This document shows positions 4,615-21,726 of a stretch of 34,346 bases of DNA, piece after piece (the stretch's first letter is position 1; each line of letters opens with the position of its first letter). Source of the stretch: Desulfovirgula sp. (GTDB lineage: Bacteria; Bacillota; Desulfotomaculia; Desulfotomaculales; Desulfovirgulaceae). The stretch lies in the NCBI GenBank assembly GCA_020725525.1, contig DYEX01000051.1, forward strand, positions 1-34,346. Direction: 5' to 3'. Position numbers and translations under genes: made by a program. Under the pieces are notes generated by a model. It was not told the DNA's origin, did not search any database, and was given only the letters and a program-made list of their open reading frames with translations.

Positions 4615-4631
4615 TTAACCAATTGTTAACC
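4615..4631 (+). promoter_or_regulatory. Direct repeat TTAACC-N5-TTAACC upstream of the crp-like gene
   Basis: Two TTAACC hexamers start at 4615 and 4626, exactly 11 bases apart, which is the arrangement bound by OmpR/PhoB-type regulators. A third TTAACC is at 4544. The same hexamer type and spacing recur upstream of resB at 17045-17115. The same bases also form an inverted repeat (TTAAC-N5-GTTAA). Confidence 0.4.
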
Positions 4632-4671
4632 CCTTTTTGAAAACCCTTTCTAACCGGGAGGGATAGACGGC

Positions 4672-5340
4672 ATGTCAATACCGCATTTGGAAACAATAGC
4701 ACTAAACGAAGTGGAAAAGGCGATCATTCGCCAGGCAGGGTTTACCGTGCATTATCCCAAGGGTCATGTTATTTTTGCCGCCGGCGATCCGGCCGACCGG
4801 GTTTACCTGGTGGAAAGCGGCTGGGTAAAAATTTACCGCCTGAATGCCGATGGCCGCAGGGTAACTGTAGGGAGCATTCGCAGTCCCGGAGAGTTAATGG
4901 GTTTGGCAGAAGCCCTCTGGGGGGGAGAAAGAACCTGCTTTGCCGGTACGATCAGCAACGTTAGCCTGGTAGTTTTGCGAAAAAACAAATTTGAAGAGTT
5001 AATGGGCACCCATCCTTTTCTGGCCATTAAGGTGGCTAAACTACTGGGAGTACGGATGCGGGAAGCCGAACAGATCATTCACGAGATGGTCTGCTGGCAG
5101 GCTCCGGGGCGGCTGGCCCTGGCCCTGTTAAAAATGGGCGAACGCTGCGGTATGGAGACCAAAAACGGCATTAAACTGGGTGTACAGCTCACCCATGAGG
5201 AACTGGCCAATATGGTCGGAACCTCCCGGCAGACGGTAACCTCCCTTTTAAACACCTTCAAGCAGGAAAAAAGCATCGCTTACGAAGGAAGGACTATCAG
5301 CATTGTCGATCCAGACAAGCTGGCCCGGTGGATTATGTAA
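4672..5340 (+). CDS. Crp/Fnr family transcriptional regulator
   Basis: A 222-residue regulator of normal family length. The cyclic-nucleotide-like beta-barrel spans about 10-115, with FAAGDP near 35-40 and GELMGL near 73-78. A dimerisation helix lies at about 116-140 and a winged helix-turn-helix at about 173-196 (LTHEELANMVGTSRQTVTSL). The barrel lacks the Glu of the CRP cAMP pocket but keeps an Arg near residue 87. There is no N-terminal Cys cluster, so it is not an Fe-S FNR of the E. coli type; its effector is unknown. GGGAGGG lies 9 bases before the ATG. It is divergent from the exporter/molybdoenzyme operon, its likely target, and is followed by an intrinsic terminator. Confidence 0.9.
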   Translation: MSIPHLETIALNEVEKAIIRQAGFTVHYPKGHVIFAAGDPADRVYLVESGWVKIYRLNADGRRVTVGSIRSPGELMGLAEALWGGERTCFAGTISNVSLVVLRKNKFEELMGTHPFLAIKVAKLLGVRMREAEQIIHEMVCWQAPGRLALALLKMGERCGMETKNGIKLGVQLTHEELANMVGTSRQTVTSLLNTFKQEKSIAYEGRTISIVDPDKLARWIM

Positions 5341-6840: not shown

Positions 6841-6937
6841 CTCTTACGGGTTGGGCAAACCGGGCGAAAGCCCGGGACGCTAAAGCCATGGGTCTAAGGT
6901 CCTTTTCAGGACTATGATCGCCAGGCTGCAACGGTAC
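6841..6937 (+). promoter_or_regulatory. c-di-GMP-I (GEMM-I) riboswitch aptamer
   Basis: The region has the GEMM hallmarks in order. GGGCAAACC is followed by a GC stem capped by GAAA (CCGGGC-GAAA-GCCCGG), then GGACGCTAAAGCC, then a second arm GGGTCTAAGGTCC...GGACTATGATCGCC leading to AGGCTGC. This is the consensus layout of class I cyclic-di-GMP riboswitches such as Vc2. The base just before CAAACC is G, which by established work favours c-di-GMP over the cGAMP-selective variant (A). It sits between a promoter and a terminator-like hairpin, upstream of the ArsB/NhaD-type permease. There is one extra T in the usual ACGCAAAGCC segment. Confidence 0.85.
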
Positions 6938-7059: not shown

Positions 7060-7083
7060 ATTTTATGAAAGGGGATGAAAGCT

Positions 7084-8481
7084 TTGTCGGATCACACCCA
7101 GGTCATTATAGCTACATCTGTTTTTTTACTCACCTATGCGATAATTATTTCGGAAAAGATTCACCGCACCGTGGCCGCCTTCTGCGGTGCGGCGATAGTC
7201 ATACTGGCCGGTATCATTACCCCGGAACTGGCCGTCCACTACATCGATTGGAACACCATCGGCCTTTTAACGGGCATGATGATCATCGTGGGCGTTACCC
7301 GTGAAACGGGAGTTTTTGAGTACTTGGCCATCAAGGCGGCCAAAATGGCCCGGGGAGAACCCCTGCGCATCCTGGCTTCTCTTTCCCTGGTCACCGCCGT
7401 CCTTTCAGCCCTGCTGGATAATGTGACCACGGTATTGCTCATCGTGCCTGTTACATTTGCCATCGCCCACAAGCTAAGGGTAAGCCCCCTGCCCTTTCTG
7501 ATTGCTGAAATTATCGCTTCCAACATTGGGGGCACGGCCACCCTGATCGGAGACCCGCCCAACATCATGATTGGCAGTGCCGTGGGGCTCGGGTTTATGG
7601 ATTTTGTGATTAACCTTACCCCGGTGGTGATAGTGATTTATGTCCTGACGATCTTTATCCTGCGCCTTATTTACCGCCGGGACCTGGTTACAAACCCTGA
7701 GAATCAAAAAAGCATCCTGGAGCTAAATGAATGGGACGAGATTAAAGACGCCTCTCTGCTCAAGCCCTGTCTTTGGGTTTTGGGTTTAACCATTGCCGGG
7801 TTTGCCCTGCACCAGTTCCTGCACCTGGAGAGTTCGGTGATTGCCCTGGCCGGGGCGGCCCTGTTGCTGGTAATTACCCGCTCCGACCCGGAACATGCCC
7901 TGCACGCCGTGGAATGGCCGGTTATCTTCTTCTTTATCGGCCTGTTTGCCCTGGTGGGAGCGCTGGAAGAAGTAGGGGTCATTGAAACTATTGCCCATTT
8001 TGCCCTGGAGGTTACCGGGGGCGAACTCCTGCCGGCCGGCCTTCTGATTGTCTGGCTTTCGGCCCTGGCCTCGGCCTTTGTGGACAACATCCCCTTTGTG
8101 GCCACCATGATTCCTTTAATCCAGGATATGGGCCGCCTGGGGGGAATAGAAAACCTCAATTTCCTGTGGTGGTCCCTATCCCTGGGGGCCTGCCTGGGTG
8201 GCAACGGCACCATCATCGGTGCTTCGGCCAACGTAGTGGTGGTGGGGATGGCCGAAAAGAGGGGTACCCACATCAGCTTCCTGGGTTTCTTTAAAGTAGC
8301 TTTTCCCCTCATGCTCCTTTCCATTATCGTTGCCACAGCATATCTGGTGGCCTGGCTGAAATTTAATACCACCCTGGTACTGGTGGCCACGCTGGCGATA
8401 GGGCTGGTTTTAAGCCTGCTGTTAAACCTGCTGCAAAGGCAGCTTAAAATAGAAACCACGGTAACAACAGGCAACCAGTAA
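7084..8481 (+). CDS. ArsB/NhaD (ion transporter superfamily) permease
   Basis: An integral membrane transporter of about 465 residues with roughly 11-12 helices. Family marks occur in both halves of the internal repeat: LDNVTTVLLIVP near 111-122 and ASNIGGTATLIGDPPN near 145-160, then VDNIPFVATMIPLI in the second half and GGNGTIIGASANVVVV after it. These place it in the ArsB/NhaD/CitM superfamily of anion and Na+/H+ carriers; arsenite, Na+/H+ or a carboxylate cannot be told apart. No arsR, arsC or arsA lies nearby, which argues against an arsenic operon. I favour the TTG at 7084, with AAAGGGG about 9 bases upstream; the ATG at 7075 touches the GGGG. It is preceded by a c-di-GMP-I riboswitch and terminator. 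Confidence 0.85.
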   Translation: MSDHTQVIIATSVFLLTYAIIISEKIHRTVAAFCGAAIVILAGIITPELAVHYIDWNTIGLLTGMMIIVGVTRETGVFEYLAIKAAKMARGEPLRILASLSLVTAVLSALLDNVTTVLLIVPVTFAIAHKLRVSPLPFLIAEIIASNIGGTATLIGDPPNIMIGSAVGLGFMDFVINLTPVVIVIYVLTIFILRLIYRRDLVTNPENQKSILELNEWDEIKDASLLKPCLWVLGLTIAGFALHQFLHLESSVIALAGAALLLVITRSDPEHALHAVEWPVIFFFIGLFALVGALEEVGVIETIAHFALEVTGGELLPAGLLIVWLSALASAFVDNIPFVATMIPLIQDMGRLGGIENLNFLWWSLSLGACLGGNGTIIGASANVVVVGMAEKRGTHISFLGFFKVAFPLMLLSIIVATAYLVAWLKFNTTLVLVATLAIGLVLSLLLNLLQRQLKIETTVTTGNQ

Positions 8482-12511: not shown

Positions 12512-12550
12512 CGCAAACAAAGAAACTCCCCCGATCTGCGAGGGAGTTTC
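12512..12550 (-). terminator. Terminator of the resB-ccsA-nrfHA unit
   Basis: GAAACTCCC and GGGAGTTTC (plus 12522-12530 and 12542-12550) form a perfect 9-base stem with an 11-base loop, followed on the minus strand by TTTGTTTG. Confidence 0.75.
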
Positions 12551-12622
12551 CTTATGTTACCTGCTTTTGAATAAAACTTCATAATCAACGAGGGGATAAA
12601 TTAATATACATGCTTTATTAAC

Positions 12623-14032
12623 CTATTTCGTCCCGTCAAAGGTAAACTCCAGATTCTCTTCCGGCTTATAGGGGACGCCCTTGGTACCCCGTTTGGCGTA
12701 CCTGGAAAGTTCAAGGTCAAATTTATCCGGTACCTGTACTCCAGCTTTCACCAGAGCTTCCCGGGCTTTCATCAGGGCCTGGTCGGCGTAATACAGGCCG
12801 TCACCCAGAACGCGCAGGGCTTCTTCCGGGTTGTGGAAGCCCATGCTGTTTTCTGCGCCAACAAAGGTCACCCGGTAGTAGGCCTTTTCATAAAGCTGCT
12901 TGGCCTGGTTCAGAAGCTCCTGGTTCACCCCGGCCGTCTTGTTGGCCAGTTCGATGGCTTTGGCCGCCTGGGCGGCGGCGTTGCCGGCCCGGGTATACAT
13001 ATTGTTCACCCGGTCCTGAATCAGGATCACCTGCTCCCGCAGCCACTGCGGGCTCTGGTTATGGCACTGGGTGCATGCCCTCATGTTGTCCTTCAGCGGG
13101 CTCTGCACGTGGTGGGAGGAAATCTTGCTGCTGCCCACCCGCTCGTAGGGCATGTGACAGTCGGCGCAGGCCACCCCGGCCCGCCAGTGGACGCTGCCGT
13201 TGGAATATAGCTCAAACTCAGGGTGGCGGATGTGCCCGAGCTTGATCCCGGTGGGGTTGTGCTTCCATTCCAGATTGGCCGGGTCGGACTTGAGCACGCG
13301 TTCAATGTCTTCAACGGTGATGTGACCCCACTGGGATTTCTGCCAGGGCAGGAACAGGCCCACGGGTTTCATATTCTGATCCCTGGGAATGACGTAGGTG
13401 TTATGGCACTGGGCGCAAACCAGGGTGCGCTTTTCCTGCCTGGTTAAACCCGCCGGATCCTTACCCAGGGCTTTCAGGGCATCGTTCATAAACCAGCGGC
13501 TTAACTTCAAATCCATGTTGGCCGGATCATGACAGTCAGCGCAGGACAACCCCAGTTCCGCATGATTCTGCGGGATCATGGCGTGCACCTGGTCATAGGG
13601 TTGCTGGAAATAGGCCAGGCCCATTTGCTCCTTTAACCGGGGTGCATAGGGGGACTTGCAGGAAAGGCATACGCCCCCCGGCTTGCGCCGGGACGGGTCA
13701 ATATCCAGCTGGTCCTTGAGCATGTACACGTGGCCCCGGGGTTCGTTGAATTCAATACCAAAACCCCATCCCTCCAGCAGCACCAGCTGGAAAGGATATT
13801 CACTCAATTTGTCCTTCAGCTCCGAACCCTTGTACTTGCTCTCGCCCTGCCCCCCCTCCTTCGTCTTCATGAAGCTATCGTATTCCAGGGGGTAGACCTT
13901 TCCCCAAACGGCAGGGTCCAGTTCCCCGGAAGGTATGGAAGCCGTCTTGACCATTTCGGCCCTGGGCGGGGCGCATCCGGCCAGAAAAAGCAGAATGAGT
14001 ACCGGCAACCAGGCCCACCAGGCTTTTTTCAA
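12623..14032 (-). CDS. nrfA: Pentahaem cytochrome c nitrite reductase NrfA (lipoprotein)
   Basis: Ammonia-forming nitrite reductase, 469 residues, acting outside the membrane. The N-terminus is a lipoprotein signal, LFLAGC with Cys 20, so it is anchored by lipid. The active-site haem is the Lys-ligated CLSCK at 122-126, and four CxxCH follow at 164-168, 206-210, 289-293 and 320-324. Catalytic Tyr 213 follows the third haem motif (CHNTY) and catalytic His 270 lies in HIRHPEFE. The calcium-site Glu is replaced by Thr 212 and the KTQ segment by HIR, which fits the calcium-independent subclass with an Arg in that site. The start is TTG at 14032, with GGAGGAG 6 bases upstream. It lies 24 bases after nrfH. 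Confidence 0.95.
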   Translation of the reverse strand: MKKAWWAWLPVLILLFLAGCAPPRAEMVKTASIPSGELDPAVWGKVYPLEYDSFMKTKEGGQGESKYKGSELKDKLSEYPFQLVLLEGWGFGIEFNEPRGHVYMLKDQLDIDPSRRKPGGVCLSCKSPYAPRLKEQMGLAYFQQPYDQVHAMIPQNHAELGLSCADCHDPANMDLKLSRWFMNDALKALGKDPAGLTRQEKRTLVCAQCHNTYVIPRDQNMKPVGLFLPWQKSQWGHITVEDIERVLKSDPANLEWKHNPTGIKLGHIRHPEFELYSNGSVHWRAGVACADCHMPYERVGSSKISSHHVQSPLKDNMRACTQCHNQSPQWLREQVILIQDRVNNMYTRAGNAAAQAAKAIELANKTAGVNQELLNQAKQLYEKAYYRVTFVGAENSMGFHNPEEALRVLGDGLYYADQALMKAREALVKAGVQVPDKFDLELSRYAKRGTKGVPYKPEENLEFTFDGTK

Positions 14033-14056
14033 GAATATCTCCTCCTTTCACAGTGG

Positions 14057-14689
14057 TTAATTGATTAATAACCGTGTCCCCTGCCCGTGGGGCACCGAAC
14101 GGTGACATTCCCAGCAATCCCTGTCTTCAAGATCAATCACGTTCTCCATCAGATTACCATGACAGCGCAGGCAGTTTTCCCGCACTATCCGGCCGCCCCG
14201 GTCGCTGAGGTGTATGGGATCCGGCACCTGATTGGTGTAAAAGAGATAAAAATCCCGTGTGCCGTCGATACCCTTGCCCACCAGTTTGGCCGCCAGGTTC
14301 TGGTGTGGTACATGGCAGTCGCTGCAGGACGCCCACTGGCGGTGGGACGAATGGAACCAGGTTTCATACTGTGGTTCCATCACGTGACAGCTGATGCAAA
14401 ATTCCGGGCGGTCGGTGTAAGACACCACGGCCTTTGTCCCGGCGGTCAGGAGCACCACCATCACCAGCAGGCCGGTCAGGAGGGACCAAATACGGCGGCG
14501 CAAGCGGTAAACGGCACTTTTCCAGGCCGGAGGGTTCTGCCGGGGGCCGCCGGCTCCGGTATCCCCACCATTTGTCCCCCCGGCACTGCCTCCCGCCGGC
14601 TGCGAGGTATCACCGGCACCGGATGGCGGCATCCCCCGGGTGTCACTGATACCGGAGCTTTTTCCCTCATGCACGGCATCTTCCCACAT
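14057..14689 (-). CDS. nrfH: Tetrahaem quinol dehydrogenase NrfH with long N-terminal tail
   Basis: NapC/NirT-family membrane cytochrome that takes electrons from menaquinol and passes them to NrfA. Haem motifs are CISCH at 98-102, CSDCH at 122-126, CLRCH at 173-177 and CWECH at 192-196. The first is followed by V-M (CxxCHxM), the Met ligand typical of NrfH. A single membrane helix lies at about 67-90. The start is the ATG at 14689, with GGGGGGTG 6 bases upstream. Odd: the roughly 60-residue cytoplasmic tail before the helix is rich in Gly, Pro, Ser and Thr with no recognised domain, where NrfH usually has about a dozen residues. It is followed closely by nrfA and preceded by ccsA. Confidence 0.93.
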   Translation of the reverse strand: MWEDAVHEGKSSGISDTRGMPPSGAGDTSQPAGGSAGGTNGGDTGAGGPRQNPPAWKSAVYRLRRRIWSLLTGLLVMVVLLTAGTKAVVSYTDRPEFCISCHVMEPQYETWFHSSHRQWASCSDCHVPHQNLAAKLVGKGIDGTRDFYLFYTNQVPDPIHLSDRGGRIVRENCLRCHGNLMENVIDLEDRDCWECHRSVPHGQGTRLLIN

Positions 14690-14795
14690 TGTTCCCACCC
14701 CCCTTCCCCCGAAAACCACCCGCCGGACGGCAGCCGGCCGGGAATGTTTCTAAAATATTTGCACAATGGCCCTTCCATGATATCCCGGAGAGTCC

Positions 14796-15620
14796 TCAGA
14801 CGTAGCTATGCTGGCCGGACATTAAAAAGGTAACGCCCACAAAAGTAAACATGACCACGATAAAACCGGCCACCGCCAGGTAGGCCGCCGGCCGGCCTCG
14901 CCAGCCCAGCATAAACCGGGCGTGGACGTAGGCGGCGTACACCAGCCAGGTGATCAAAGACCAGGTTTCCTTGGGGTCCCAGCTCCAGTAGGCCCCCCAG
15001 GCGTACTGGGCCCAAATGGCCCCGGTGACAATCAACAGTGTTTGAAAGGGCAGGCCGATGACCACTGCCTGGTAAACCAGCCGGTCCAGAACTTCCCGGT
15101 CCGGCAGGCGCCGGCGTAAGCCAGCAAACAGGGGGGAATCCCCGCTGGCGATCAGATAAAGCACCGCGCCGGCAAAGGAAAGAGCAAAGGCACTGTAGGC
15201 CACAATGGCCGTTAATACATGATAGGTCAGCCAGTTGCTGCGCAGGGCCGGCATCAGGGCGCCGGTCTCCCGGGGCAGCATGGATATCAGGGCAATTACC
15301 AGAAAGCCCATGAGGGTCGTAAATACTCCCAGTCCCTTAATCTTTACCTTCAGCTGCAGCAACAAATAACCCAGCATGATCCCCCAGGCAAAGCACAACC
15401 CGAACTCGTAAAGATTGGCCAGGGGCAGCCTGCCGGTAGCGGCAATCCTGGCCCCCAGGGCGGCGGTATTGCCCAGCAAACCCAGCCAGGCCACCGCTGC
15501 GGCCCAGCGGGCGGCAACCGGTTTGTCCGCCATAAAATCGGCCAGGTAAAGAATAACCGCCCCCAGATAGGCACCAAAGGCAATTTTAAAGGCAAGCGGT
15601 TCAAGCCACATCCTGTTCAT
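14796..15620 (-). CDS. ccsA: CcsA/ResC cytochrome c synthetase subunit
   Basis: Membrane haem-handling subunit of System II cytochrome c maturation, 274 residues and about eight helices. The tryptophan-rich WWD domain is at 203-220 (WAQYAWGAYWSWDPKETW). Conserved His residues lie at about 134, 233 and 271. With ResB it moves haem across the membrane and attaches it to CxxCH motifs. The gene overlaps the end of resB by 20 bases. The start is ATG at 15620, touching AAAGGGG; the ATG three codons later (15611) has better spacing and may be the real start. Its presence upstream of nrfHA supplies the maturation machinery for nine haems. Confidence 0.93.
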   Translation of the reverse strand: MNRMWLEPLAFKIAFGAYLGAVILYLADFMADKPVAARWAAAVAWLGLLGNTAALGARIAATGRLPLANLYEFGLCFAWGIMLGYLLLQLKVKIKGLGVFTTLMGFLVIALISMLPRETGALMPALRSNWLTYHVLTAIVAYSAFALSFAGAVLYLIASGDSPLFAGLRRRLPDREVLDRLVYQAVVIGLPFQTLLIVTGAIWAQYAWGAYWSWDPKETWSLITWLVYAAYVHARFMLGWRGRPAAYLAVAGFIVVMFTFVGVTFLMSGQHSYV

Positions 15621-16935
15621 CCCCTTTCCACAGGGCCAGACTGGATTCTATTTCACGGACCATTCCATCAAACTCCTCCCGGGCCAGGGCGCGGGTATGC
15701 ATGGAAGCCCCGCTGCCCAGAATCAGGCTCAGCGCACCGTCCGCCGTCTCTTCCATACGCAGCCAGTACCGCCTGTGCCGCACAAACAGGGTCAGGAAGA
15801 AAAAGAGACTCATCAGGGTTAAACCGGCAAACACCAGGGGGATGCTGGGATCGTGCTTTACCTGCAGCACCGAAAAGGGGTTGGTTCCGGTCAGGCGCAG
15901 GATTCCGGCACTTTCGGGCAGGGTAATGCTTTCCCCCGTGGAGAGAGTACCCGCAGCTATTTCCTGGTGCCCCTTGTAAAGGGCATAGTCCACCGTACCG
16001 TTTTCATTCCAGGAACCAAACCATATGCCATAGTTCTCCAGGCCGGGCAGCCGGTAAAACCGGTTTGGGGAAAGGACCGCCGCCTGGGGCGTTCCCTGTG
16101 CTCCACCGGCAAGCTCCACCTTTAAAGCCTGGCCGTAGGAATACTGGTATAAATGATAGCCGCGATAATTAAAGGGGTGGTTGACCATGACATCCCCCCT
16201 TTGCACTTCCTGGCCATTGGCAATGATGGTCACCCTGCTCACCCAGTTATCAATGGCCCCGCTGGCATCGTAAAGGGTGGTAAAGTCATCCAGCCTGATG
16301 GTAAAACGGTCCACACCGGAAGACTGCTGGGAACCCGTGACCACTTCCGCCTGCTCGCCCACGAGAAGGACCACCCGGGTTTCCGACCGGGCCACTCCCC
16401 CCCAGGCAAAACCGGCCACCACTACCACCAGGGAGATGTGCAGCCCGAAGCTGAACCAGGGGCCCGCTTTTCCCCGGCTGGCATAGAGCCAGGTGGTGGA
16501 TCCATCGCGGCATTTGCGTACGGAATAATGGCGCCGGCGAAAAAAATCAACCAGGCGGTCTTCTGCCGGAATCCCGCCGGTTTCCAAGCTGGTCCGGTAA
16601 ATCAGGGGCATTTGTTCAATGTTGCTCTTTTTGATCTGTTCCGGGGAGGGGAAAGTGGTTATTTTTAACATATATAACCGGTTAATTGAACAGGCAATGA
16701 GATTCAGGCATAAAAGAGCGAAAAGGAGGCGGAACAGGAAGGAACGGTATATGTTATCCAGGCCCAGCACCTGCACCAGCCAGGCCGTCTCCCCGTATCC
16801 CTGACCGGTGCCGGGGGCGAACAAGGAAGCAAAGGCCAGGGCTGCGGAAAGGATACAAAGCAGAATCAAGCCGAAACGCATGGAAGTAAACAAGCGCCAG
16901 GTACGATTGAAAAAGTTTCGCTCTGCCACGGACAT
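15601..16935 (-). CDS. resB: ResB/Ccs1 cytochrome c biogenesis protein
   Basis: System II partner of CcsA, 444 residues. Two helices lie near the N-terminus (about 20-42 and 66-86). A third at about 163-184 precedes a large extracytoplasmic domain (about 185-370), and a last helix lies at about 372-392. Family marks include MRFGLILLCILSAALAFASL and the C-terminal part of the loop with VNHPFNYRGYHLYQYSYG. ResB binds haem and presents apocytochrome to CcsA. The C-terminal cytoplasmic tail is about 50 residues. The start ATG at 16935 has AAAGGATGA just upstream; a GTG two codons later is possible. It is the first gene of the resB-ccsA-nrfH-nrfA unit, directly downstream of a phased TTAA array. 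Confidence 0.92.
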   Translation of the reverse strand: MSVAERNFFNRTWRLFTSMRFGLILLCILSAALAFASLFAPGTGQGYGETAWLVQVLGLDNIYRSFLFRLLFALLCLNLIACSINRLYMLKITTFPSPEQIKKSNIEQMPLIYRTSLETGGIPAEDRLVDFFRRRHYSVRKCRDGSTTWLYASRGKAGPWFSFGLHISLVVVVAGFAWGGVARSETRVVLLVGEQAEVVTGSQQSSGVDRFTIRLDDFTTLYDASGAIDNWVSRVTIIANGQEVQRGDVMVNHPFNYRGYHLYQYSYGQALKVELAGGAQGTPQAAVLSPNRFYRLPGLENYGIWFGSWNENGTVDYALYKGHQEIAAGTLSTGESITLPESAGILRLTGTNPFSVLQVKHDPSIPLVFAGLTLMSLFFFLTLFVRHRRYWLRMEETADGALSLILGSGASMHTRALAREEFDGMVREIESSLALWKGDEQDVA

Positions 16936-17044
16936 TCATCCTTTTATGAATAGTGGTTTTGGTTTTGCGGAAAGCGCATTTCCCCAAAATCTTTTTATGT
17001 AATCCGGTAAAGGACAAGTGCTTGTGACTACTTTTACATTAAAT

Positions 17045-17115
17045 TAACATAAACTTGTTAATACATAAGAAACGTTTTATTAACAAATTCTTAAGGAAAA
17101 CTTAAAAGCTGTTAA
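17045..17115 (-). promoter_or_regulatory. Phased array of TTAA-type hexamers upstream of resB
   Basis: On the minus strand hexamers start at successive helical turns: TTAACA (plus 17110-17115), TTAAGT (17100-17105), TTAAGA (17089-17094), TTAATA (17078-17083), a degenerate TTTCTT (17067-17072), TTAACA (17056-17061) and a degenerate ATGTTA (17045-17050). Steps are 10, 11, 11, 11, 11 and 11 bases. This is the layout of tandem sites bound by OmpR/PhoB/PhoP-type regulators, such as the TTAACA repeats of Bacillus PhoP. The OmpR-family gene ends at 17151 and resB starts at 16935. A poor -10 (TACATA, plus 16996-17001) without a good -35 follows, as expected for an activator-dependent promoter. Confidence 0.7.
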
Positions 17116-17150
17116 TAACCAGGGGTGTTTATCCAGTGTGAAATTAAGGG

Positions 17151-17834
17151 TTATTCGGCGACAAATTTGTAACCCACGCCCCAGATGGTTTTCAGATACC
17201 GGGGCTTGCGGGGATCGGCCTCGATTTTTTCCCGCAGCCGGCGCATAAATACGGTGACCGTACTCAAATCGCTTAACACGTCATCGCCCCAAACGTGTGC
17301 AAAGATTTGCTCCCTGGTAAATACCCGTCCGGGGTGGCGGGCCAGAAACCACAGGAGGTCAAATTCCTTTGGCGTGAGCTCCACCTCCCTCCCCTCCACC
17401 CACACCCGGCGCTGAAAGGCATCTATTTGCAGGCCTGCCGCTTCCACCCGGTCCGAACGGTCCGTCCGGCCCTGCCGGCTGCGGCGCAGCAGCGCCTTGA
17501 CCCGCAAAGCCAGCTCCACCGGGCTGAAAGGTTTGGTTAAATAGTCATCGGCACCGCAATTAAACCCCACACTTTTATCCACAATGTCCCCTTTGGCGGA
17601 AAGGATGAGGATGGGCACGTCGCTCACCTCCCGCCAGCGCCGGCAGAGCTCAAACCCGTCAATCTCCGGCAGCATGACGTCCAGAATGACCAGATCCGGC
17701 CGCCGGCGGGCAAAGAGCTCCCGGGCCGCCAGCCCGTCGGCGGCATAGTCCACCGTAAAACCCTCCCGTTCCAGGGTCTGCTCCACCACCCGCTTGATAC
17801 TGATCTCGTCATCTACCAGCAGAATCCGGGCCAA
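17151..17834 (-). CDS. OmpR-family response regulator
   Basis: A 227-residue regulator. The receiver domain (about 1-118) has acidic residues in VDDE (7-10), phosphoacceptor D52 in LVILDVMLP, and K101 in DDYLTKPF. The C-terminal winged helix (about 130-225) ends in the typical KPRYLKTIWGVGYKF. The start is TTG at 17834, with GGGGGGAG 4 bases upstream, giving MARILLVDDE; the ATG at 17861 is out of place and has no site. It follows the haem-c sensor kinase by about 158 bases. Its likely targets are the phased hexamers upstream of resB and perhaps those before the crp-like gene. An inverted repeat of TTAA type precedes its own gene. Confidence 0.92.
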   Translation of the reverse strand: MARILLVDDEISIKRVVEQTLEREGFTVDYAADGLAARELFARRRPDLVILDVMLPEIDGFELCRRWREVSDVPILILSAKGDIVDKSVGFNCGADDYLTKPFSPVELALRVKALLRRSRQGRTDRSDRVEAAGLQIDAFQRRVWVEGREVELTPKEFDLLWFLARHPGRVFTREQIFAHVWGDDVLSDLSTVTVFMRRLREKIEADPRKPRYLKTIWGVGYKFVAE

Positions 17835-17850
17835 AATTCTCCCCCCTGCA

Positions 17851-17868
17851 TTAAGGTACATGCCTTAA
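17851..17868. promoter_or_regulatory. Inverted repeat before the response regulator start
   Basis: TTAAGG-TACATG-CCTTAA is a perfect 6-base inverted repeat just upstream of the ribosome binding site. It shares the TTAA(G/C) core with the resB array and may be an autoregulatory site. Confidence 0.4.
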
Positions 17869-17935
17869 GTGCAATGCCAATCAAAAAACCACCATACTGC
17901 ATAATCATGTCAGGGTACAAGCGTTCTAACGAGCT

Positions 17936-17972
17936 CCCTCAGGCATAGCCCTTGCATCATGCAACTGAGAGG
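17936..17972. other. Hairpin in the kinase-regulator gap
   Basis: CCCTCAG and CTGAGAGGG pair with a one-base bulge around an inner palindrome TTGCATcATGCAA (17952-17964). There is no T-run on either side. It could tune regulator versus kinase expression. Confidence 0.4.
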
Positions 17973-17992
17973 GCAACCGGCTCCCACGGCGC

Positions 17993-19636
17993 TTAAGCTA
18001 CGGGCAGGTGAATCACAAAGGTACTGCCTTCCCCCGGTTTACTGGTTACACTGATATATCCCCCGTGCAGTTCCACCAGTTCCCTGGCCAGAGACAATCC
18101 CAGGCCGGACCCCCCGTATTTATGCGCCCGGGAATTGCCGGCCTGGTAGAATCGTTCAAAGACCAGGTCCAGCTCTTCCGGTTCGATGCCCATACCATTG
18201 TCGGCCACCCGGATGAACACCTCTTTCCGCCCGGGGTCGAATCCGGCCCGCATCTCCACCCGCCCGCCGGGAGGGGTGAACTTCACCGCATTGTGGGCCA
18301 GGTTTAAAATGGCCCGGCGAATCTTTTCCCCGTCCACCTCCATCAGGGGCACATCCGGCTCCACCTCCCAGTACCAGCCGAGACCATTGGCTTCAATCAA
18401 GGGGCTCAAGGTTTTATCAATGGATTCGAAAATATCAGCCAGGTCCACCAGTTCCCGGTGCAGCTGGAAACGGCCGGCCTCAATTCTGGCCAGATCCAGC
18501 AGGTCCTCAATCAAAGCCAGCAGACGCCGGGCGCTGGCTTTGATTTCCTGTAAATTCTGCCTTTGTAACCTGTTTTCCTCCCTTGTTTCCTGTAGCAGCA
18601 ATTCGCTGAAGGCAATGATAGAAGTAAGGGGGGTGCGCATCTCATGGCTCATCCCGGCCAAAAAGCGAGACTTCATCTCACTGGCCCGGGCCAGCTCCCA
18701 GTTGGCATTCTCCAATTCCTGCCGCTGCCGCTCCAGGAGTTCATTGGCCGCCTGCAACTGGGCCGTACGCTCCTGCACCTTTTGCTCCAGGCCGGTATAC
18801 AGGTCGTGTAACTGCCGGGCCATCCGGCGGAACTGGGCCGCCAGCTGGCCGATCTCCGCACTACTATCCAACCTGGGAAAAGACAGATCCAGTTCCCCTT
18901 CCCCCAGGCGTACGGCGGCCAGGCGCAACTGGTTCAGCGGCCCGGTGACCAAACGCTGTATTAAAAAGTAAACCACGCCAAGGATGACCAGCAAAAGAAT
19001 AAAAAAGAAGCCCAGGTGGCGCAGCAGGTTGTGCCACAGGGCGGCAAGCAAATTGTTCACCGGCACTATCAGGCTGATGGCCCCTCCCAGATCGCCCACC
19101 CGGTAACCTTCCCTGGGGTAACCGGAAATATCCAGCCGTCCCGCCGGTTCCCCGTGGCACTGCAGGCAGTATTCCTCCACCCGCAAAGGTACCATATACC
19201 GGAAAACCTTTTCTCCGTTCAGCTCATCAAAACCGTAAAACTCGGTCAAAGAGGGGTTTTGGGCCAGGGCTTCCAGTCCTCTTATTTCAAAGGCATCGGG
19301 GGCATTCCCGGGATTGCGGGGATTGAGGCGGGTCTGTTTAATGTGGTAACCGGTGGATTGGTTGAATATCTCCCCCACACCCCGCCCCACCGCCGCCGGG
19401 TTGAGGCCTTTAAATTCAAAATGGCCCCGGGAATCGTAATTGATCCGGTCCTGATTACGGGCGATAAACTCCCGGGTGGCCAGAAGCTGGCCGGTAATCA
19501 CCCGGGACTTTTCCTTTAACTCCTGCAGGATCTGATTTTTCTGCTCGTAATAATCCAGCCCAAGGTTTATGCCGGTAATCAAAAGCAGGATTGCGGTGAT
19601 CCGGATCATAAACTTCCGGCTCAAACTACCCCGCAT
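17993..19636 (-). CDS. Sensor histidine kinase with haem-c (DUF3365-type) periplasmic domain
   Basis: A 547-residue membrane kinase. A signal-anchor helix lies at about 12-30. The extracytoplasmic sensor runs to about residue 195, with the haem c motif CLQCH at about 157-161 in the DUF3365 context EEYCLQCHGEPAG followed by YRVGDLGGAISLIVPV. A second helix (about 205-228), a HAMP domain (about 228-280) and a coiled coil follow. The H-box SHEMRTPLTS, N-box NLAHNAVKF, VADNGMGIEPEE and GGSGLGLSLAREL mark a complete kinase core. The start at 19636 has GGGTGGG 6 bases upstream. It is paired with the OmpR regulator. A covalent haem suggests sensing of redox state, NO, CO or nitrite. The cytochrome assembly genes it seems to control are also needed to mature it. 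Confidence 0.9.
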   Translation of the reverse strand: MRGSLSRKFMIRITAILLLITGINLGLDYYEQKNQILQELKEKSRVITGQLLATREFIARNQDRINYDSRGHFEFKGLNPAAVGRGVGEIFNQSTGYHIKQTRLNPRNPGNAPDAFEIRGLEALAQNPSLTEFYGFDELNGEKVFRYMVPLRVEEYCLQCHGEPAGRLDISGYPREGYRVGDLGGAISLIVPVNNLLAALWHNLLRHLGFFFILLLVILGVVYFLIQRLVTGPLNQLRLAAVRLGEGELDLSFPRLDSSAEIGQLAAQFRRMARQLHDLYTGLEQKVQERTAQLQAANELLERQRQELENANWELARASEMKSRFLAGMSHEMRTPLTSIIAFSELLLQETREENRLQRQNLQEIKASARRLLALIEDLLDLARIEAGRFQLHRELVDLADIFESIDKTLSPLIEANGLGWYWEVEPDVPLMEVDGEKIRRAILNLAHNAVKFTPPGGRVEMRAGFDPGRKEVFIRVADNGMGIEPEELDLVFERFYQAGNSRAHKYGGSGLGLSLARELVELHGGYISVTSKPGEGSTFVIHLPVA

Positions 19637-19652
19637 AATCATCCCACCCGCA

Positions 19653-19808
19653 TTACTTCAGGAAATGAAGGACGTCTTTTAGGACAACGATACCTACCAC
19701 CTTCTTGCCCCCATCCACCACGGGAATTCTACCGTAACCGTGTTTAATGATCAACTGGCTTTTTTGAATGGGGTCTCCGGGGAGGAACCTCCAGTGCATC
19801 TCATCCAT
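19653..19808 (-). pseudogene. Half CBS domain remnant (51 codons)
   Basis: The short frame starts MDEMHWRFLPGDPIQKS. Its second half, HGYGRIPVVDGGKKVVGIVV and then LKDVLHFLK, is a clear C-terminal half of a CBS domain (the beta-strand/helix segment with R-x-P-V-V-D and the V-G-I-V strand). The first half of the domain is missing. It overlaps the end of the P-type ATPase gene by 8 bases, lacks a ribosome binding site and ends 17 bases before the kinase start. It may be a decayed CBS protein or a translationally coupled small protein. Confidence 0.55.
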
Positions 19809-21726
19809 TCCGGTAACGCATAAGTCGCATGGCGTTCAGGATGACCAGGAGTACACTGGCTTCATGGATAAGCATGCCGGAAGCCAGCACCACCTTTTGG
19901 CCCATAACACCCAGCAGCAAAACTGCCACCACCAGAATGGCAAAGGTGACATTTTGCTGGATATTTTTCAAGGTCTGACGGCTGAGGCCGATGGCGTAGG
20001 GGAGTTTATCCAGGCGGTCGGACATGAGGACGATGTCCGCCGTTTCCATGGCCACGTCGGTCCCTGCCGCCCCCATGGCAATACCCACATCGGCAGCCGC
20101 CAGGGCCGGGGCATCATTGATCCCGTCCCCCACCATGGCCACCACCAGCCCCTCCTGCTTCAAACGGCGGATGGCCTCCACTTTCCCTTCCGGCAAAACC
20201 TCCGCCTGGTATTCGTCCATCCCCAGTTCGCGGGCCACGGCCCGGGCCACCCGCCGGTTGTCACCGGTGAGCATGACCACCCTGCGTACTCCGGCAGCCT
20301 TTAACCGGGCCACCAGATCTTTCGCTTCGTCCCGGATCTCGTCGGCAATGCTCACTGCTCCCCATATTTCCTCCCCTATGGCCACCAGGACGGCTGTCCG
20401 TCCGGCAGACTCTTCGCCTGCCAGGTAATTTTCCACATCCACCGGAACGGGGATGCTGGCTTCCTGCATCAACCGGCGGTTACCCACCCGGATAATCTCC
20501 CCGTCCACCGTACCGGTTACCCCGCAACCGGGGTGAACCTGAAAATTTTCCGCCGGGGGGATTTCACCCAGGGACTCCGCCCTTTCCACCAGGGGTTTGG
20601 CCAGGGGATGTCCGGACAGTTTTTCCACGGCAGCAGCTTTAAGCAGCATTTCCTTTTCCGACCCGCGCCACACCCGCACTTTTTTTACCAGCGGCCGGCC
20701 CCGGGTGAGGGTGCCGGTTTTATCCAGAACCACCGCCCGGATCCGTCCGGCCTTTTCCAGGTGCTCCCCGCCCTTGATCAGAACCCCGTGGCGGGCGGCA
20801 TTTCCCGTAGCGGCCACAATGGAAACGGGGGTGGCAATCACCAGCGCCCCGGGACAGGCAATCACCAGCAGGGTCAGGGCCAGCAGGGCATCCCGGGTTA
20901 CCAGATAGGTCAGGACGGAAACCGCCATAATCCCGGGAGTATAGTAACGGGCGAAGTTTTCCAGCCAGCGCTGGATCCTGGCCTTTTCCTCCTGGGCCTC
21001 TTCCACCAGTTGCATGATCCGGGCAAAGGTGGTTTCCTCACCGGTTCGTTCCGCTTCCACCTCCAGGTAGCCGCTTTCATTCATGGTGCCGCTGAATACA
21101 TAATCCCCCGGCTCCTTCTGCACCGGGAGGGACTCCCCGGTGATGGCCGCCTGGTTGACCGCCGCCCGTCCCCTGACCACCCTGCCATCCACCGGAATTT
21201 TATCCCCGGCACGGATGAGGACCAGCTCACCGGTTTCCACCTCTTCCGCCGGCACCTCCACTTCGGTTCCCTCCCGGCGCACCCGGGCCACCCGGGGCGC
21301 CAGCTCCATCAGTTTCCTCAAAGCGGCACGGGTTTTGTCCATGGTCCGGGCTTCCAGATAATTTCCCAGGGAAAACAGAAAAGTGACCACGGCCGCCTCC
21401 CAGTATTCGCCGATAATGGTGGCGCCCAGGGCAGCCAGGGTAACCAGGGCATTGATGCCCACCACCCGGAAGCGCAAAGCCTGCCAGGCTGACGCAGCAA
21501 CCCGGTAGCCGGCCAGGAGAGTGGCCAGCACCATCAACCCGTTGGCCGCCGCCGGCCAGCCCAGGCGGCCGGCCAGGTAACCCAGCAGGATGAGCAGTCC
21601 AGAACCCAGGGTGATCATAAGCTTGTCATAAGCCACCCACAGCTCCCTCAAGCGTTCCAGGCGGAACAAGCCACCAACCGGGGCAACGGGAACGGCACTT
21701 TCTCTTTGTGACGGGAAGCTGAACAT
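19801..21726 (-). CDS. P1B-type heavy-metal ATPase with CPG motif
   Basis: Metal-translocating ATPase of 641 residues without an N-terminal metal-binding domain. TGES is at 196-199, the membrane metal motif CPG at 291-293 (ACPGALVIATPVS), the phosphorylated Asp 335 in DKTGTLT, the nucleotide-domain SGHPL near 374, TGDN and GDGINDAP further on, and a C-terminal membrane helix with HEASVLLVILNAMRL. The usual triplet is CPC (Cu, Zn/Cd) or SPC (Co/Fe); CPG is unusual and leaves the metal open. GGGAGGGG lies 6 bases before the ATG, 2 bases after the stop of the HMA gene, so the two are coupled. The separate HMA protein probably replaces the missing N-terminal domain. Confidence 0.92.
   Translation of the reverse strand: MFSFPSQRESAVPVAPVGGLFRLERLRELWVAYDKLMITLGSGLLILLGYLAGRLGWPAAANGLMVLATLLAGYRVAASAWQALRFRVVGINALVTLAALGATIIGEYWEAAVVTFLFSLGNYLEARTMDKTRAALRKLMELAPRVARVRREGTEVEVPAEEVETGELVLIRAGDKIPVDGRVVRGRAAVNQAAITGESLPVQKEPGDYVFSGTMNESGYLEVEAERTGEETTFARIMQLVEEAQEEKARIQRWLENFARYYTPGIMAVSVLTYLVTRDALLALTLLVIACPGALVIATPVSIVAATGNAARHGVLIKGGEHLEKAGRIRAVVLDKTGTLTRGRPLVKKVRVWRGSEKEMLLKAAAVEKLSGHPLAKPLVERAESLGEIPPAENFQVHPGCGVTGTVDGEIIRVGNRRLMQEASIPVPVDVENYLAGEESAGRTAVLVAIGEEIWGAVSIADEIRDEAKDLVARLKAAGVRRVVMLTGDNRRVARAVARELGMDEYQAEVLPEGKVEAIRRLKQEGLVVAMVGDGINDAPALAAADVGIAMGAAGTDVAMETADIVLMSDRLDKLPYAIGLSRQTLKNIQQNVTFAILVVAVLLLGVMGQKVVLASGMLIHEASVLLVILNAMRLMRYRNG

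Follow-up and report, generated by a model that had tools for sequence, protein, structure and literature searches.

Why is a sensor kinase that carries its own haem c attachment motif encoded beside the enzymes that attach haem c and beside an ammonia-forming nitrite reductase? The question is raised by a stretch of 34,346 nucleotides from Desulfovirgula sp. (GenBank assembly GCA_020725525.1, contig DYEX01000051.1, positions 1 to 34,346), here referred to as the window, which is contig C12 of a 3.24-Mb genome in 191 contigs. Genes for the kinase and a response regulator, a repeat array, resB, ccsA, nrfH and nrfA follow one another on the minus strand; this gene order, the shared direction, the haem motifs and the array before resB had been given in a preliminary description of the locus, and all of them were confirmed, position by position. 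Our analysis indicates that the locus probably encodes a two-component switch for ammonifying nitrite reduction, similar to ResDE but with a haem c sensor, which would induce a haem c synthase together with NrfHA. The coding features are as follows.

17993..19642, minus strand: sCache_heme (Tll0287/DUF3365) sensor histidine kinase, 549 amino acids (Pfam, model, fold match)
19154..19168, minus strand: haem c attachment motif CLQCH of the kinase, residues 159-163 (motif search, alignment)
17151..17861, minus strand: OmpR/PhoB-type response regulator with receiver and winged helix, 236 amino acids (Pfam, NCBIfam)
15601..16935, minus strand: ResB, subunit of the System II haem c synthase (Pfam ResB, E 3.1e-57)
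14796..15620, minus strand: CcsA/ResC-type subunit of the System II synthase (Pfam Cytochrom_C_asm, E 9e-46; TIGR03144)
14057..14719, minus strand: NrfH, with four CXXCH motifs (Cytochrom_NNT, E 1.2e-16; TIGR03153)
12623..14032, minus strand: NrfA, ammonia-forming nitrite reductase, with four CXXCH motifs and one CXXCK (Cytochrom_C552, E 4.8e-141)
13655..13669, minus strand: CXXCK motif of NrfA (CLSCK, residue 122; motif search)

The sensor domain of the kinase matches the Tll0287-like family PF11845 in Pfam (E 3.9e-35; 121.8 bits against a cut-off of 24.1). It is flanked by two long helices and followed by HAMP, HisKA and HATPase_c domains, and no PAS domain was matched in the kinase by Pfam at E 0.001. 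An AlphaFold2 model of the sensor, based on a 16-sequence alignment (predicted local distance difference test score, 86.6), has a Cache-type, Tll0287-like fold, and its PDB matches at E values up to 0.001 are Tll0287 (5b82, 1.7e-8) and GSU0935 (3b42, 9.2e-4), with no others. The kinase has two cysteines in total, both within CLQCH, and the C, C and H of CXXCH are invariant in 40 of 40 aligned sequences; covalent binding of haem c by the kinase is predicted. A 2026 preprint (PMC12889525) named the family sCache_heme, describes covalent haem c in this domain and gives a CXXCH motif for 99% of the family. According to that preprint, the single signalling-type protein tested binds nitric oxide (NO), releases it slowly and lacks an axial cysteine, the single stand-alone protein tested has Cys/His ligation and redox-like properties, and signalling-fused domains are grouped with the NO sensors. 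In a profile alignment, Pro82 of the window kinase is paired with a cysteine of Tll0287. If this cysteine is the axial ligand, which the NO binder of the preprint lacks, the window kinase would belong to the NO-sensor side of the family.

It is also possible, though we regard it as somewhat doubtful, that the sensor reads the redox state of the quinone or haem pool and not NO. The redox-like properties of the stand-alone domain tested (PMC12889525) would fit this, as would relatives that adjoin multihaem proteins (L050, L061) or triplets of open reading frames that resemble molybdoenzyme operons by size alone (L048, L049). However, at the position that is Cys in seven other sensors (in LNCS, LHCS, LSCS or MNCS), Pro is found in all 20 nrfA-linked sensors aligned, and the preprint's grouping of signalling-fused domains with NO sensors likewise argues for NO. 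We considered whether absence of the cysteine tracks nrfA linkage, and the cases are too few to claim this.

The partners of the kinase are of known kinds. Both Response_reg and Trans_reg_C were matched in the regulator by Pfam, which is the domain pair of PhoB/OmpR regulators. NrfH scores 150 bits with TIGR03153 (cut-off, 134.2) and CcsA passes the cut-off of the CcsB model TIGR03144; CcsA also has a WSWD motif at residue 212, in keeping with the tryptophan-rich WWD-type motif of System II. NrfA scores 471 bits against PF02335 and lies below the cut-offs of both NCBIfam NrfA models (219.9 versus 595 and 171.3 versus 692.5), and ResB had no match in NCBIfam.

In the switch that we propose, the extracytoplasmic sCache_heme domain, without the cysteine of Tll0287, would respond to NO or to the accompanying nitrite or redox state, and the kinase would phosphorylate the adjacent PhoB-type regulator. 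Once phosphorylated, the regulator would bind to an 11-bp repeat array and raise the transcription of resB-ccsA-nrfH-nrfA, and induction would thus yield a nitrite- and NO-reducing enzyme together with the haem c synthase that enzyme and sensor alike would need. NrfA enzymes can remove both nitrite and NO. Since nitrite and NO are reported to impair CcmE, the haem chaperone of System I (PMC9697910), a joint response of synthase and NrfHA would be useful, but this genome has System II.

Conservation of the locus was followed in a set of 60 related genomes, the window's own included. PF11845 occurs in 7 of these and NrfA in 13, and all seven sensor-bearing genomes have NrfA, so that the sensor is present in 7 of 13 genomes with NrfA versus none of the 47 without it. 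The preliminary description had staked its reading on conservation of this neighbourhood in relatives, and the cluster is indeed kept in the six other genomes with the sensor: in each, the genes for kinase and regulator adjoin resB/ccsA, and five have nrfHA there as well. In the sixth, from the window's family (G008), the contig stops after ccsA and nrfA begins another contig. The order is identical to that of the window in three genomes of its genus, and the same order with one extra gene is seen in locus L012. In L013, nrfHA lies ahead of the kinase gene, resB/ccsA is divergent and ResB is 27% identical to that of the window. The L012 operon is similar to the window's (87% identity for CcsA, 85% for NrfA and 72% for ResB), but its kinase and regulator are only 41% and 48% identical, respectively, and the two kinases fall in different clades of the tree described below. 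This suggests that the operon has met two different sCache_heme kinases and that kinase and regulator were swapped without a change of sensor type. HPP-family genes lie within the cluster in L012 and L009, and proteins of this family are described as nitrite transporters in cyanobacteria and chloroplasts (PMC7438415).

A wider sample comprised 398 genomes of the window's phylum, in which PF11845 gave 73 matches in 44 genomes, 43 of them above the cut-off; in the preprint, sCache_heme is described as rare or absent in Bacillota, unlike this result (PMC12889525). NrfA was found in 96 genomes (71 with strong matches), and sensor and strong NrfA occur together in 35, including G200, which was left out of the nrfA-linked count because its weak PF11845 match lies inside nrfA itself. 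A genome search for such kinases beside resB/ccsA/nrfHA had been proposed in the preliminary description; in the phylum sample, nrfA lay within 10 kb of 18 of the 72 sensor matches, spread over 17 genomes, where random placement would be expected to give 0.59 of 73. Three of the 17 genomes belong to the window's genus. A neighbourhood map of 66 stretches and the window shows three arrangements: kinase-regulator-nrfH-nrfA without resB (for example, L051, L053, L055, L057 and L059), kinase-regulator-resB-ccsA without nrfHA (L067 and L072), and both resB-ccsA and nrfHA at the kinase-regulator pair (the window's family, L012, L013 and L045). Other sensor copies adjoin multihaem proteins or triplets of large open reading frames, many adjoin neither, and in L079 the sensor frame was not found intact. 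Scanning of named genomes gave 22 loci, several duplicating mapped ones, with kinase-regulator-nrfH-nrfA also found in a Symbiobacteriaceae and an Actinomycetota assembly (L128, L130). On a quick tree of 75 kinases, nrfA linkage requires 10 changes and resB/ccsA linkage 6, a count that possibly includes losses. Chance or a single-genome arrangement is ruled out by the conserved clusters, the excess in the phylum sample and this spread over the kinase tree.

Several sensor copies elsewhere are of note in their own right. In Carboxydothermus islandicus and genomes that share its genus code (L041, L043, L142), the genes for an sCache_heme kinase and its regulator have a gene for a protein with 20 CXXCH motifs upstream of them, nrfA is convergent, and the sensor frame of L142 is broken. 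Up to five PF11845 copies were found per genome (G393, G431). A tblastn search of phage sequences with the kinase gave 169 records, none of which covered 80% of the kinase, and the three matches listed align from kinase residue 230 on, outside the sensor domain.

The following noncoding features bear on the control of the genes downstream of the regulator gene.

17039..17115, minus strand: TTAA half-site array ahead of resB, candidate regulator binding region (steps of 10, 11, 11, 22, 14 and 5 bp)
17015..17031, minus strand: block GTAGTCACAAGCACTTG, just downstream of the array and largely kept in five genomes (alignment)
12517..12555, minus strand: strong hairpin with U-rich 3' side behind nrfA (-31.2 kcal/mol, z -5.6)

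An 85-nt core of the array contains seven TTAA sequences, five of which form a chain at steps of 10-12, 21-23 or 32-34 bp. Such a chain was equalled in 0.08% of dinucleotide shuffles (P 0.0008), and self-identity at lag 11 has a P value of 0.005. Both values are optimistic because the core was picked after inspection; the unselected 150 nt behind the window's regulator gene gives a borderline P of 0.06 at lag 11. Stronger support comes from conservation: five genomes of the family retain the array block, even though the distance from regulator gene to resB varies among them from 200 to 517 nt. In addition, we compared ten lags in the 150 nt behind 46 cognate regulator genes, a set that includes near-copies. 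A share of 19.5 of these 46 regions had lag 11 as the best of the ten (z over shuffles, 0.90 on average; P < 0.05 in 10 of 46 regions). In three control sets, the share was 7.0 of 44 for sequence upstream of the kinase gene, 8.5 of 46 for the following 150 nt and 3.8 of 46 for sequence within the regulator gene. The phased array before resB, as first described, holds: it is conserved in the family, and 11-bp repeats are over-represented across families, if unevenly. Taken together, the five-genome conservation and the cross-family excess rule out that the family array is only AT-rich noise, although the window by itself is borderline.

On balance, these results favour the cognate regulator as the one that would bind the array. 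The array is downstream of both the kinase and the regulator gene, so that it should control the genes from resB on but not the kinase. A 20-bp overlap of ccsA and resB and a distance of 24 bp from nrfH to the nrfA start make it probable that resB-ccsA-nrfH-nrfA is cotranscribed, and the hairpin at 12517-12555 is probably the transcript end; it is also listed by a terminator scan, the total of which is near expectation (15 found, 11.5 expected). A promoter scan gave no excess over expectation (5 found, 3.5 expected) and includes a weak TTAACA/AAGAAT pair within the array. Block GTAGTCACAAGCACTTG is a possible promoter or second operator.

A number of observations weigh against the switch or against parts of it. 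For the sensor, it is by inference that the cysteine aligned with Pro82 is identified as the axial ligand of Tll0287. For the array, the control regions have peaks of their own, at lag 12 upstream of the kinase (share, 10.5) and at lags 9 (share, 14.0) and 12 inside the regulator gene. Outside the window's family, lag 11 reached P < 0.05 in 4 of 17 nrfA- or resB/ccsA-linked loci (L012, L055, L059, L075), and no lag-11 signal was found by the 150-nt test in L013, L051, L062, L063, L067, L068 and L069; TTAA repeats are visible by eye in L062 and L068. This test is blunt: L009 and L010 have their array outside the 150 nt examined, and the signal of L010 is due to other sequence. For the linkage, the tree rows comprise 49 kinases with neither neighbour, 16 with nrfA only, 8 with both and 2 with resB/ccsA only. 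As 49 of 75 rows have neither and 16 of the 24 nrfA-linked rows are without resB/ccsA, the module is not dedicated to either; neighbour genes were called by BLAST to window proteins, so that diverged ResB or NrfH can be missed, and all linkage counts take in related genomes. Finally, a regulon search with the array pattern found perfect 11-bp TTAA triplets at five genome sites, two of which precede pst-like and phn-like operons (named by eye), and this weakens the assignment of the array to the adjacent regulator.

The last of these points keeps a rival alive, namely, that the array is the Pho box of a PhoB/PhoP-type regulator of phosphate starvation. The positions of two of the five triplets, before pst-like and phosphonate-like operons, are those that Pho boxes would occupy, and PhoP and ResD cross-regulate the res operon of B. 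subtilis, a point for which a literature search gave no clear support. However, there is an excess of 11-bp repeats after the cognate regulator gene in families in which the downstream genes differ. The half-sites also vary between groups, being TTAAG-like in several loci and TGTCAT in L057 and L059, where the recognition helix differs as well, although these cases are few. We regard a Pho box as unlikely and retain the adjacent regulator as the candidate for binding the array.

With regard to the supply of haem c, the genome content was of particular relevance. The ResB search of the window's own genome returned two matches from one candidate, and Pfam likewise matches the window ResB in two pieces, so that this was counted as one ResB. 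Cytochrom_C_asm has one match genome-wide, the window CcsA, and there is one PF02683 match for a CcdA-type thiol transporter (G000:C135). CXXCH codons were matched 178 times in the genome (80 + 98), and in-frame runs of at least three CXXCH motifs within 600 bp were found only in nrfH and nrfA. An in-frame pair on C184 belongs to a zinc-ribbon-like protein, and a codon pair at 19937/20075 of the window crosses CadA, whose protein has no CXXCH. No cytochrome-like frame was found in the 20 stretches read, which cover 26 of the 178 matches; by eye, the frames in these stretches were either cytoplasmic (tRNA synthetase, DnaJ, RNA methylase, zinc-finger and iron-sulphur types) or due to chance, and some stretches had no frame of more than 70 amino acids containing CXXCH. 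Judged from gene content, the sensor, NrfH and NrfA are therefore the haem c clients found, apparently sharing one synthase, and single-haem cytochromes elsewhere are possible. Similarly, NrfH and NrfA have been reported as the two predicted c-type cytochromes of Desulfotomaculum reducens (PMC4137172).

As one ResB and one CcsA-family protein were found, the haem of the sensor should come from ResB/CcsA. The preliminary description had reasoned that the sensor can mature only if these two proteins work. As far as known synthases go, the genome content supports this, and the dependency is tighter than could be seen at the time because the whole genome yields a single ResB and a single CcsA-family protein. 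By the same reasoning, NrfA has a CXXCK motif and one synthase was found, so that one unfused ResB/CcsA pair should handle CXXCK as well as CXXCH, barring an unrecognised synthase. According to a 2025 review (PMC12285233), no System II protein other than NrfI has been confirmed to serve CXXCK, and the window pair thus provides a test case for the question, left open there, of a System II synthase for CXXCK besides Wolinella NrfI.

The self-dependency of the sensor could have a regulatory meaning beyond the switch, with the kinase serving as a maturation checkpoint. In this arrangement, the kinase would be a client of the sole synthase that it controls, and apo- and holo-kinase would signal differently: the apo form would report that maturation is failing, and thereby the state of ResB/CcsA and haem supply, and the holo form would add NO or redox sensing. 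The single ResB, the single CcsA-family protein and the set of clients found agree with such a checkpoint, and the resB/ccsA linkage without nrfHA in L067 and L072 could mean that it was assembled more than once. Precedents exist in the blocking of TorS signalling by apo-TorC (PMC11727998) and in the effect of nitrite and NO on CcmE (PMC9697910). However, apo and holo signalling are indistinguishable from sequence, the kinase gene does not lie behind the array and is thus no obvious member of the regulated unit, 65 of the 75 tree kinases have no resB/ccsA called nearby, and single-haem clients elsewhere in the genome are possible. On these grounds we consider the checkpoint improbable as an addition to the switch.

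A simpler explanation for the linkage of synthase and reductase, which is compatible with the switch and to which we give about an even chance, is that resB/ccsA lies beside nrfHA to provide the CXXCK haem, that the kinase serves the operon as its sensor of nitrite or NO and that the dependency of the kinase has no regulatory meaning. The CXXCK motif of NrfA, the CXXCK synthase NrfI in the nrfHAIJ operon of Wolinella (PMC12285233) and the kinase-regulator-nrfH-nrfA loci without resB in other families are all in line with this. The two genomes in which kinase-regulator-resB-ccsA occurs without nearby nrfHA (L067, L072) are not.

The proposed switch has several partial counterparts. The kinase of the ResDE system has a cytoplasmic PAS domain between HAMP and HisKA, whereas the window kinase has no such match and has instead an extracytoplasmic haem c domain. 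In addition, the kinase and regulator genes come first in the window and nrfHA is downstream. The likeness to resABCDE of Bacillus was judged from gene arrangement and domains: there, too, the genes for a membrane kinase and a regulator accompany those of System II (PMC5047918), and the operon is activated by its own product ResD (PMC6323116). The domain family, CXXCH motif, fold and HAMP-linked architecture are shared with known sCache_heme signalling proteins, namely, a P. azotoformans protein and GSU0582 and GSU0935 of Geobacter (PMC12889525), but the window sensor is linked to nrfHA and to the synthase for its own haem. In TorC/TorS of E. coli, kinase output is likewise tied to cytochrome c maturation, as apo-TorC binds TorS (PMC11727998, PMC8534201); there, the kinase binds a separate apocytochrome, whereas the window kinase itself would be the client. 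The Wolinella nrfHAIJ operon also has a System II synthase gene inside an nrfHA operon, but NrfI, a fused CcsBA that serves CXXCK, is one of several synthases there, while the window pair is unfused and the only synthase found (PMC12285233). Lastly, nitrogen-oxide-responsive control of nrf is described for NarX/NarQ-NarL/NarP in E. coli and predicted for HcpR at nrfHA of Geobacter (PMC12285233, PMC1274295), in these cases by other regulator families and without a haem c sensor.

In light of these precedents, in particular sCache_heme NO sensors, resABCDE and apo-TorC/TorS, the statement in the preliminary description that no system with this wiring had been described was too strong. Its interpretation is supported in part, with respect to the conservation of neighbourhood and array and the dependency of the sensor; haem on the kinase, a report of maturation capacity, binding of the array by the regulator and the nature of the signal are predictions. 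Each ingredient was known before, from the sensor family and System II to NrfHA, the pairing of kinase and regulator with System II genes, and signalling that depends on maturation, and it is their combination that is newly seen: an sCache_heme kinase with nrfHA or with resB/ccsA is not described in the literature searched, mostly outside subscription journals. In the main text of PMC12889525, a search for the terms operon, nrf and nitrite gave no occurrence. Since sCache_heme signalling proteins were proposed there as NO sensors, with target genes apparently unnamed, the nrfHA linkage offers a testable physiological output for them. This genome, in which a single ResB, a single CcsA-family protein and three clients (NrfH, NrfA and the sensor) were found, would also appear to be a minimal case for the control of cytochrome c maturation.

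Some minor features were noted around the cluster. Directly upstream of the kinase, at about 19650-19795 on the minus strand of the window, lies what is left of a CBS-domain protein. D. thermobenzoicus has both an HPP and a CBS gene intact ahead of the kinase (L009, 4638-5846); in the window they are replaced by a P-type ATPase gene (19801-21726) and the CBS tail alone remains. The resB gene of D. thermobenzoicus is split into two open reading frames (L009, 8748-10070) by a frameshift or an assembly error, and its neighbours are intact up to the contig limit. Open reading frames of 211 amino acids in L008 and L010 were judged by eye to be antisense frames and were discarded. In L053 and L072, a palindrome and a T run, possibly a terminator or attenuator, follow the 11-bp repeats at the place where the window has block GTAGTCACAAGCACTTG. 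A CRP/FNR-family gene of the window (4672-5340, plus strand) is preceded at 4615-4640 by an 11-bp TTAA triplet with one mismatch. Finally, a c-di-GMP-I riboswitch (RF01051, 71.5 bits; 6844-6933, plus strand) precedes a gene for an ArsB/CitMHS-type transporter at 7075-8481.

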